Origin: Tribonema minus
Taxonomy: Eukaryota; Sar; Xanthophyceae; Tribonematales; Tribonemataceae
NCBI GenBank assembly: GCA_017506865.1
Contig: JAFCMP010000526.1
Coordinates: 496,001 to 560,000 of the forward strand
DNA: 64,000 nucleotides
Reading direction: 5' to 3'
In this document: one piece after another, positions 1,130 through 63,100 of the stretch
Layout: each line of letters opens with the position of its first letter
Position numbering within the stretch: the first letter of the stretch is position 1
Made by a program: the position numbers and the translations under genes
The notes under the pieces: generated by a model
The model's database searches: none
What the model was told of the DNA's origin: nothing
The model's input: only the letters and a program-made list of their open reading frames with translations

Positions 1130-1320
1130 TCACTGCGCGGTGCGTGGCGCCCCTGCCGCCTGCAGAACGAGGTCGCCCGCGACGGCGCCCACGCCCGTGA
1201 GCACGCCCAAAAGTGGCGCGTCACAGCGCACGCAAAAGCGGAGTATCACAGCGCGGTGCGTGGCGCCCTCGCCGCCTGCAGAATGAGGTCGCCCGCGACG
1301 GCGCCCACGGCCATGATGGT
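1130..1320 (-). repeat. Tandem duplication of the oxidoreductase C-terminal coding end
   Basis: A segment of about 70 bp encoding the last residues of the GMC protein (minus strand, AVGAVAGDLILQAA) is present twice about 115 bp apart, once in the real last exon and once just past its stop. The second copy reads VGAVAGDLVLQAAG and also ends in a stop. Confidence 0.75.
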
Positions 1321-60114: not shown

Positions 60115-63100
60115 TCACGGCTGCTGTTCGACGAGGTCGTCGTACTTGGTCTCGCCGTCGCCGATGACCACAGCGCCGAGCGCTGCTGCTGCTGCCACCT
60201 CCTCGTCGCCTTCCGCAATGACGACGGCATCGAGCGCAGCTGCCGCCGCCTCCTCATCACCCTCTGCGATCGTGGCCGCCGTAATGTCGTCCATCAGATC
60301 GCCCTTCGATAGCCGCAGCGATGAGTTGTTGGCAATCTCAACGAGTCGCCGCGAGCTCGACTTGCCCGTCTGGCTGATGAACCCCATGAGCAGGCTGGTG
60401 GAGCGCTGCTGCTGCTGCAGGCCAATGAAACTGTCGCCGTTCTCGGAGGGAACGCCGCCGACGGCAACAAGCGCTGCCGGCGTGTCGAATTCGCCCACGC
60501 GGCCGTCCTGCATGACGAGGATCTTGTCCGAGTCCATGATGGTGTTGAGGCGGTGCGCGATGGTGAGCACTGTGCACGCCGCAAACTCCTCGCGGATCGT
60601 CTTCTGGATCAGGATGTCTGTGTCAATGTCAATGTTGGCTGCGGCGGCGAGAGTGTGCGCGCGCAGAAGTGAGAAAACCGGGCAAAGTGACTATTGCGTG
60701 AGACAGGTGTGCAGGTGATCGATGCGTAGCACATCAAGAGGGTACCGTGCCAGCCATGGAACGCACCGCACGCGCGCGCACAGATAATGCCAATTGGTGG
60801 CTGCTGCAAATGTGCTCACAGCATGGCAAAGGCAGAGAGAGAGTGATTTGTGCAGCAGCAGCAGCGCTTGACTCACCCGTCGCCTCGTCGCACACGAGGA
60901 TCTTGGCGCGGCGCAGGATCGCGCGCGCAAGGCACACCAGCTGGCGCTGCCCCACGCTCATGTTCTCGCCGCCCTCCGCCACCTCTGCGTCGAGCTTGCC
61001 GTCGAGACCCGTAACGTAGTCGGAGAGGTGCGCCGCGCGGAGCGCTGCCCACAGGCGCGCGTCGTCGTACGTGCCAAAGGGGTCCAGGTTCTGCCGCAGC
61101 GTGCCCTGGAACATGACCGGGTCCTGGTGAAAGAGGGGGGGGCGGGGGGGGGTGAGTGCCGACAAGCGTGCAGGTGATGGTGATTGATGTGACACTTCAA
61201 ACTTGAACCGTGTTCAGTGCGTCGCAGCGGGGGGGGGGGGGGGGGGGGGGCAGGGGACAGAGGACATGTGCGCGCTGTGCCGCTGTGGGAACGAGACAGG
61301 CTTCGCTGTGCCAAGTGACAGGCGGATCAGTGCTCGAGACCGCAAGTGCTGCTTACTTCTGCTGCGCAAATCCTTCGGAACCTTGTCCTTTAAAGCAACC
61401 ATCAAGTTCACCCATGTGCTCAGCAATCCACGGCAGAGATTCACGCTGAGCGCGTTCCACAGGTTGACTAGACTCAGGCACAGCAGGACCCATTTTTTTC
61501 ACACCATGCAGGTGTTATTGAGAACCAAAGAAGAGAACCATTCAGTTTTTGAAGTCAGGAAGCAGCTAGAGCATGAGCGTGATGAGGCGCAGACAACACC
61601 TGCTCACCTGGGAAATGATGCTGAGCGCGTTCCGCAGGTCATTGAAGCCCCCATGCGTAGCGCGCACAGCGGAATGCCACCTTCTACAACAAAATGCACG
61701 TGTGCCTAAGCTTGCAAAAGTGTATACTTCGAAGTAGGTCACACTTGACCGCGAATAGATGCAGACAACACCTGCTCACCTGGGGAATGGTGCTGAGCGC
61801 GTTCCGCAGGTCATTGAAGCCTCCTCATGCGTAGCACGCACAGCGGAACGCCACTTTTTATTACAACAAAATGCACGTGTGCCTGAGCTTGCAAGAGTGT
61901 ATAGGTCCCCTTGAACGCGAATAGATGCAGACAACACTTCCTCACCTGGGGGATGATGCTGAGCGCGTTTCGCAGGTCATCGAGGCCGACGCGCAGCGCG
62001 TCGACGCCGTCGATCTCAATTGAACCCGCGCACGGCTCAACAATGCGGAAAAGTGCTGTCATGAGACTCGATTTGCCGGAGCCGGTGCGACCGGCGATGC
62101 CGATCTTCTCGCCGCCGCGAACTTCAAAGGTGACGTTGTTGAGGACGAGGTCCAGGTCGGGGCGGTACCTGAGAGGGGTGGGGGGGGGGGGGGGGAGTGG
62201 GCGGTGCAACATTGTTTGCGGTGAGCAGCGGTTGCCTTAGTGAGGTCTTTGTTGCAGGCGATAGGGTTAACAGCAAACGCAATGTGGTGCATGAAGAGTG
62301 CATGAATACTTTGAAGCTAGTCCGGATCGCGCAGTCTACCATTGAACTGCCTCTGCTTCACAGGAGAAAAAGTCAGACTTTGAACTGGCAACTACATGCA
62401 TGCAAAGCATACTCGCACCCATTGAGCCATGCTCGAGAGCAACAGTTAAATCCAACCCTGCAACCTTGAAATGTTCAGGAGAGGCGCATCAGATGCCAGC
62501 GAGGGGTACTCGGTGACATCACCAGAGCAGCAGCATCGCTCATCCCTGATGCAACTGGCGTTCATTCATGACTAAGCACGCGAATCCCGCGGCCATATAC
62601 TTGGAGACATTACCTAACCAATAAATAGCGTTACGTGTGCCTGAGCAGAACGCGGCATTGCACGACTAAGCACGCGGGTCTGTCATTTCAATCAAACAAC
62701 GACGCCTCACCTGAGGCTCACGCCGCGGAACGTGATGGCCCCCTTGGCAGGCCACCCCTCAGGGGGGCGGTAGTCGGCGTTGATGGGGGGGGCCTCGGGG
62801 GTCAGCGACCCGTACTCGGTGACGCGCTCTGCAGAGGTGATGCGCGCCTCTGTCTCGCAGCCCATGCGGACGACCATGTTGAGCGTGCCGGTGACCTGGA
62901 AGGGGGGACGGGGGGGGGGGGGGGGTTATTGGTGAGCAGGGAGAGTGTGTGTGTGTGTGAGTGACAGGGGCAAAAGATGGGGTGGCGAGGGTTTTGGTGG
63001 GGATCCTGGGAGAGCGAAGCGCGCAGCGGAAATAGTGTGAAGCTTGCTCTGAGGTGTATGGGGGGTCAGGTCACTTGACCCGCCCGAGTTCACACATTGA

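Follow-up and report, generated by a model that had tools for sequence, protein, structure and literature searches.

Copied exon edges in the introns of Tribonema minus genes: mostly tandem duplications across splice junctions

Tandem repeats at exon-intron boundaries have been described for human genes within segmental duplications (PMC2812944); according to the accessible part of that publication, they were sought only in segmental duplications, their number varies between recent paralogues, and most of them alter coding or create introns. The repeats found in Tribonema minus represent the same kind of object as far as that part of the publication goes: tandem units including exon sequence are situated at the exon-intron boundary of protein-coding genes, and head-to-tail units composed of an exon edge and intron constitute 23 of the 26 arrays identified in 28 introns. 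Unlike the human repeats, the copies are old and diverged and occur on 26 of 63 tested splice edges. Array units are not shared between the paralogues compared, all of which belong to one genome. The statement of the first-pass annotation that no description of this exact pattern was known is therefore too strong as to kind; our literature search, with most subscription papers outside its scope, yielded no account of such array density in ordinary genes. The copies (hereafter echoes) are real, and they are mostly explained as tandem duplications that span a splice junction and are probably hidden by splicing, i.e., a variant of the described boundary repeats.

Intron gain by tandem genomic duplication is a further known system, with Rogers (1989) among its references; Zhuo (2007) and Gao and Lynch (2009) may also be named. 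As described in the accessible part of PMC2891723, the duplication of exon sequence around AGGT gives rise to a new intron, and the similarity to the present arrays consists in exon sequence next to splice signals being duplicated and one copy being spliced out; however, the introns pre-exist in T. minus, and the unit comprises exon together with intron that was already present. Introners, which have been reported from algae, among them Aureococcus and Florenciella (PMC9860276), are likewise repeated sequence tied to introns, but constitute, in the available sections of that paper, one family across many introns, whereas the arrays described here are private to their own junction. In the self-comparison of the window (the whole analysed stretch of 64,000 nucleotides, from 496001 to 560000 on contig C523; the genome comprises 158.2 Mb in 554 contigs), the same intron sequence was not found at many sites.

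Exon edges and the anatomy of their copies

For five genes, the exon edges were determined from splice signals, reading frame and homology alone: a GMC gene (11 exons), an importin-alpha gene (8 exons) and an ABC-transporter gene (5 exons) in the window, together with one importin-alpha paralogue each on contigs C89 (5 exons) and C101 (4 exons, one of them partial), which were obtained by an Arm-domain search blind to repeats. The GMC draft contains the Pfam domains GMC_oxred_N and GMC_oxred_C, and its PDB matches, by which the C-terminus was placed, are concordant; its exon 5204-5301 is probably in the wrong frame, such that only the edges of this exon were used further, and the region of the first GMC exon (about 14.5-15.8 kb) was omitted from the analysis. 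For the ABC draft, Pfam gives ABC_tran, 'ABCC' being a name taken over from the first-pass annotation. The best named matches of the importin-alpha draft in the window are mostly stramenopiles (Ectocarpus, Pinguiococcus, Chrysoparadoxa, oomycetes), which share about 52-61% identity with it across most of its length; no near-identical protein was present among the matches of the homologue search.

Each edge query comprised 60 bases (45 of exon and 15 of intron) and was compared, for 33 exons, with the adjoining intron, shuffled introns serving as null. Across the five genes, 26 of 63 splice-junction edges recur at p<1e-6 in the intron next to them, and 37 of 63 are without echo. At the same threshold, copies exist for 11 of 32 acceptor edges and for 16 of 33 donor-side edges; two of the latter represent the stop-codon end of a gene, and 15 of the 31 true splice donors possess a copy. 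No match at p<1e-6 was obtained in the intron on the wrong side (0/64; donor edges upstream 0/32, acceptor edges downstream 0/32), with reverse-complement edge queries (0/65; 0/33 donor, 0/32 acceptor) or with queries from exon middles (0/40; 0/20 + 0/20). One wrong-side acceptor edge (importin exon 2) appears at p<1e-4, and the looser cut of p<1e-3 yields three control matches, i.e., one wrong-side acceptor, one reverse complement and one exon middle. With 26 of 63 edges copied and clean controls, the initial claim that exon edges recur with their splice signal in introns of GMC, importin-alpha and ABCC genes holds, and the check proposed along with it, a count of junction copies against copies of internal exon sequence, gave 26/63 versus 0/40 at p<1e-6 in the five genes.

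The 28 introns of the five genes (23,789 bp) contain 13 donor-spanning, 10 acceptor-spanning and 3 intron-only arrays, and none of these 26 runs from donor to acceptor. The unit consists of an exon edge (8-111 nt), the splice site and some intron, in natural order and head-to-tail across one junction. The smallest offsets of the 23 junction arrays range from 49 to 195 bp, and given this range and that of the exon part, the distance to the splice site is not constant. The suggestion of local tandem duplication is borne out by the head-to-tail copies, by the presence of exon and intron sequence within units, and by the orientation of local repeats in 314 kb (79 direct, 6 inverted). The array positions reported on first pass were likewise confirmed by self-comparison and array anatomy (Table 1), and all three genes named there do possess arrays, although the ABC gene has a single one. 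Copy number, which had been put at 1 to about 10, is 1-6 per array in one count and up to 8 in another, 10 being reached only under a lax mask. The item near position 1130 is not a splice-junction echo as supposed but a copy of the end of the coding sequence, stop codon included.

Table 1. Arrays and duplications in the window (positions counted from its first letter; exon part, length of exon sequence in the unit).
Gene	Feature	Position	Strand	Copies and exon part
GMC	Duplication across stop codon	1117..1316	-	Coding end 1246-1380; copy 1117-1200 beyond coding end
GMC	Acceptor-spanning array, exon starting at 3275	3220..3765	-	About 3 echoes, exon part 56 nt
GMC	Donor-spanning array (GC donor), exon ending at 5204	4553..5216	-	Exon part 13 nt
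GMC	Donor-spanning array, exon 6812-7006	6619..6869	-	2 echoes, exon part 58 nt
GMC	Acceptor-spanning array, exon 6812-7006	6938..7459	-	3 echoes, exon part 69 nt
GMC	Donor-spanning duplication, exon ending at 8499	8243..8609	-	1 echo, exon part 111 nt
GMC	Donor-spanning array, exon 9512-9697	9162..9581	-	3 echoes, exon part 70 nt
GMC	Acceptor-spanning duplication, exon 9512-9697	9641..9889	-	1 echo, exon part 57 nt
GMC	Donor-spanning array, exon 12038-12182	11412..12059	-	6-10 short echoes, exon part about 22 nt
Importin-alpha	Acceptor-spanning array, exon 24756-24866	24378..24763	+	Exon part 8 nt
Importin-alpha	Donor-spanning array, exon 25358-25558	25507..26159	+	4 echoes with junction, exon part 52 nt
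Importin-alpha	Acceptor-spanning array, exon 27367-27531	26882..27422	+	3 echoes, exon part 56 nt
Importin-alpha	Donor-spanning duplication, exon 27955-28086	28068..28266	+	Exon part 19 nt
Importin-alpha	Acceptor-spanning duplication, exon 29511-29701	29206..29542	+	1 echo, exon part 32 nt
ABC transporter	Donor-spanning array, exon 61946-62168	61589..62000	-	2 echoes, exon part 55 nt
Importin-alpha	Intron-only tandem duplication (contrast case)	22842..23103	+	
GMC	Intron-only tandem duplication (contrast case)	5691..5788	-	
GMC	Intron-only tandem duplication (contrast case)	4303..4403	-	

The GMC stop codon was one of two gene ends tested for edge copies, and the only one with a match; the duplication at this non-splice coding edge has the same anatomy as those at junctions (one case of two gene ends). 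Since the array straddles the stop codon, splicing is not required for array formation.

In the importin genes, four homologues align via the outermost copy into the exon body, and the echoes match the edge only. It had been proposed that each array starts at the junction and extends intronward, which is correct as a direction but not as evidence for anchoring: copies after the donor or before the acceptor follow from the geometry of any junction-spanning tandem duplication, only the outermost copy remaining joined to the exon body. Array direction was consequently dropped as a sign of an anchored mechanism.

The stretch 7539-7631, near the GMC acceptor array beginning at 6938, resembles an older copy by eye. 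Interstitial telomere-like TTAGGG/CCCTAA runs occur at 2053-2142, at 4553-5216 (here with TTAGGG in the intron part of the GMC array) and at other intron positions of the window. A stretch of 190 bp (44502-44691) matches its own reverse complement at 81%, and a diverged direct duplication with an offset of about 1.9-2.0 kb and 64-69% identity is situated at 47852-51284.

Distribution among loci and position relative to junctions

Among nine conserved loci outside the genes of the first-pass annotation, junction-spanning arrays are found in five, i.e., in the importin-alpha paralogues on C89 and C101, which were scored formally, and in three GMC loci classed by eye (L007 with one, L009 with one and L010 with two; L007 also contains one intron-only array, by eye). 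No junction-spanning arrays were found in the other four, the GMC locus L008 and three conserved genes of contig C379 chosen by eye. From our own reading of the peptides, we take these C379 genes to be ARP6, a lumenal PPIase-like gene and a cyclophilin. Concerning ab initio exon edges, copies on the right and the wrong side, respectively, were found in 1/161 and 0/161 on C379, where many 'exons' are maybe not genes (TE-rich), in 5/68 and 2/67 on C335, where ORFs are repetitive, in 1/26 and 1/26 at 30-59 kb of the window, and in 3/18 and 1/16 in the GMC loci L007-L010, some of them on predicted echo exons. The process that had been thought to be genome-wide thus extends beyond three genes but is not general, L008 and the three C379 genes being without arrays; the duplication process, or its survival, is patchy. 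On C379, a recent 2-kb tandem duplication of 98% identity is present at 610614-614528 (L013-L014), and the stretches of both C379 and C335 contain several ORF copies that by eye resemble reverse transcriptases of retroelements.

Donor and acceptor arrays are situated at the same intron in the importin-alpha gene of the window and in its C101 paralogue, with exon parts of 52 versus 39 nt and 56 versus 79 nt, and the similarity of their intron parts is no higher than that of shuffles. In the GMC loci L007 and L010, an acceptor array is found at the same exon (exon parts about 36 and 132 nt), with one of two intron comparisons slightly above shuffles (28 versus a maximum of 25). These same-junction arrays of paralogues look like separate events, some coincidence being expected given the frequency of arrays. 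An intron is situated before IQTVLDS in the importin-alpha gene of the window (exon 27367-27531) and after it in C101 (L006 1464-1650), which indicates that intron gain, loss or shift occurred.

Under a null in which founding duplications fall uniformly over introns and edges, with present intron lengths minus visible array growth, 9.5 of the 26 arrays are expected to span a junction; 23 do, a number reached in 0 of 200,000 simulations. Detection favours junction arrays, since one of their copies is under constraint: 11 of the 23 are detectable via their intron part alone (in C89 and C101 only 1 of 9), and a simulated intron-only array of matched size and divergence was detected 60% of the time. 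With this correction, the 3 intron-only arrays become 5 and P is near 1e-6, or 1e-4 if detection is halved again; in the strictest control, 11 of 14 arrays are junction-spanning (P 0.0017). Taken alone, C89 and C101 contain 9 junction-spanning and 0 intron-only arrays (product of chances 0.001, detection ignored), but with only 1 of 9 arrays detectable from its intron part, and detection thus unaccounted for, they were rejected as an independent replication. By our own arithmetic, the junction excess would mostly disappear if introns had been 200-250 bp long at founding. Of the idea of duplication anchored at splice sites, the excess at junctions stands, whereas short ancestral introns could mimic anchoring itself. 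In the sampled genes, the number of arrays at exon edges exceeds that under uniform placement.

Divergence of the echoes and the TTGAAGT/ACTTCAA motif

Between echo and real exon, divergence amounts to 8.1/5.6/16.0% at codon positions 1/2/3 and to 17.6% in the intron part; between echoes, the respective values are 13.6/10.3/19.4% and 21.4%. For a drifting echo compared with a constrained exon, positions 1-2 are expected at about half the neutral value, and the echo-exon values are near this half, somewhat below it. Frameshifting indels exist in 13 of 57 echoes, and stop codons number 2 in 832 codons versus 6.3 simulated (P 0.04). The dinucleotides at echo donors are GT 22, GC 6 and other 3, those at echo acceptors AG 18 and other 2, with 6 sites unaligned; 22 of 33 donors and 17 of 21 acceptors of echoes equal or exceed the score of the weakest real site. 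GC donors also occur in 3 of the 28 introns of the five genes. We read the echoes as roughly or mostly neutral, with weak constraint possible. The few stops and the lower between-echo divergence at positions 1-2 are weak hints that they are perhaps not fully neutral, the latter being equally expected if copies were made one after another from an exon under constraint.

Across the 28 introns, the octamers GTTGAAGT and TTGAAGTT number 32 and 28, respectively, versus a dinucleotide expectation of 0.7 and 0.6, and TTGAAGT is without strand bias (28 and 28). In an association noticed post hoc and inflated by copying inside arrays, 13 of 23 arrays have TTGAAGT with one mismatch within 30 bp of the joint of the best copy, towards the intron, the mean elsewhere, i.e., at other positions in the same introns, being 17%. 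One-mismatch density of TTGAAGT/ACTTCAA is 1.4-3.5 per kb in 8 echo loci versus 0-0.7 per kb in 4 echo-free ones, measured over introns in the five genes and over whole loci in L007-L010. Strong over-representation in both orientations is seen in the GMC, importin and ABC introns of the window and in C89, C101, L007, L009 and L010. Among 6-mers at the joints, ACTTCA ranks first (p 3e-4, before any correction for the large number of 6-mers compared). At joints of adjacent tandem pairs in C379 and C335, TTGAAGT was found in 0 of 11 cases, which does not support it as a general endpoint of duplication. A duplication process of its own, targeting exon edges in a subset of genes with one endpoint in the exon and the other tending towards TTGAAGT/ACTTCAA and lengthening introns by repeated rounds, is conceivable, though we hold it to be rather doubtful.

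Origin of the arrays

The arrays are best explained, with a probability of roughly two in three, by recurrent short tandem duplications across junctions that are hidden by splicing, either exon edges being favoured or the founding introns having been short. The two endpoints of such a duplication would lie in an exon and in the intron next to it, respectively, at an offset of roughly 50-195 bp. The outermost copy, joined to the exon body, would be the one used, and splicing would remove the inner ones, which would explain why arrays are tolerated; as most exons measure 87-290 bp and introns about 850 bp, the outermost splice site would be preferred under exon definition. The stop-codon duplication would be similarly hidden, past the coding end, and duplications entirely within a coding exon would be purged. 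The copies thereafter diverge roughly neutrally. Since selection alone leaves the rarity of intron-only arrays unexplained, favoured endpoints at edges or short founding introns would be needed in addition; in the latter alternative, introns would have been short when the arrays were founded and since lengthened by the same duplication. Gene conversion, also suggested at the outset, is not needed to account for the arrays, though it may have contributed.

Pure survivorship, i.e., a uniform duplication rate with exon-internal duplications purged and the remainder seen at junctions and in introns, would explain the one-sidedness, the missing exon-middle copies and the neutrality of echoes, and founding introns of the short length calculated above would bring its expectation near the observation; as it stands, it predicts the 9.5 junction-spanning arrays of the null against the 23 seen (P 1e-6 to 0.0017 after detection corrections), and we regard it as unlikely. 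Somewhat less likely still is a function of echoes as alternative or decoy splice sites, by which junction arrays would persist longer than intron-only ones: the site scores, the low number of stops and the mostly kept dinucleotides agree with it, whereas the frameshifts, a divergence close to the neutral expectation and units that are not shared at homologous junctions of paralogues speak against it.

The copying of splicing intermediates or pre-mRNA pieces back into the locus, put forward in the first-pass annotation, would involve exon edges as well; in none of the 23 junction-spanning arrays, however, does the unit end exactly at the splice site, the units crossing the junction head-to-tail instead, and identical anatomy is seen over the stop codon, such that reinsertion is very improbable. 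Still less credence is due to the birth of introns from a tandemly duplicated exon piece with AGGT or to a spreading introner, known sources of repeats at introns as far as the accessible parts of the two publications go (PMC2891723, PMC9860276): intron birth is contradicted by the lack of any donor-to-acceptor array among the 26, and an introner by the self-comparison of the window (E 1e-4), in which just two pairs were separated by more than 4 kb, both of them inverted, so that arrays of different introns there share no family. An assembly artefact is just as hard to believe, the copies being too diverged (roughly 5-30%, with indels) and the one-sided pattern recurring on several contigs with different units.

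In practice, echoes constitute a hazard for annotation, several of them having been called as exons by a gene finder trained on these data. Should the excess at edges hold genome-wide, introns would lengthen by duplicating their own junctions, with the route from short to long introns being visible and spare splice sites being steadily provided; the mutational question of why endpoints of duplications prefer exon edges to the adjoining intron would then become testable.
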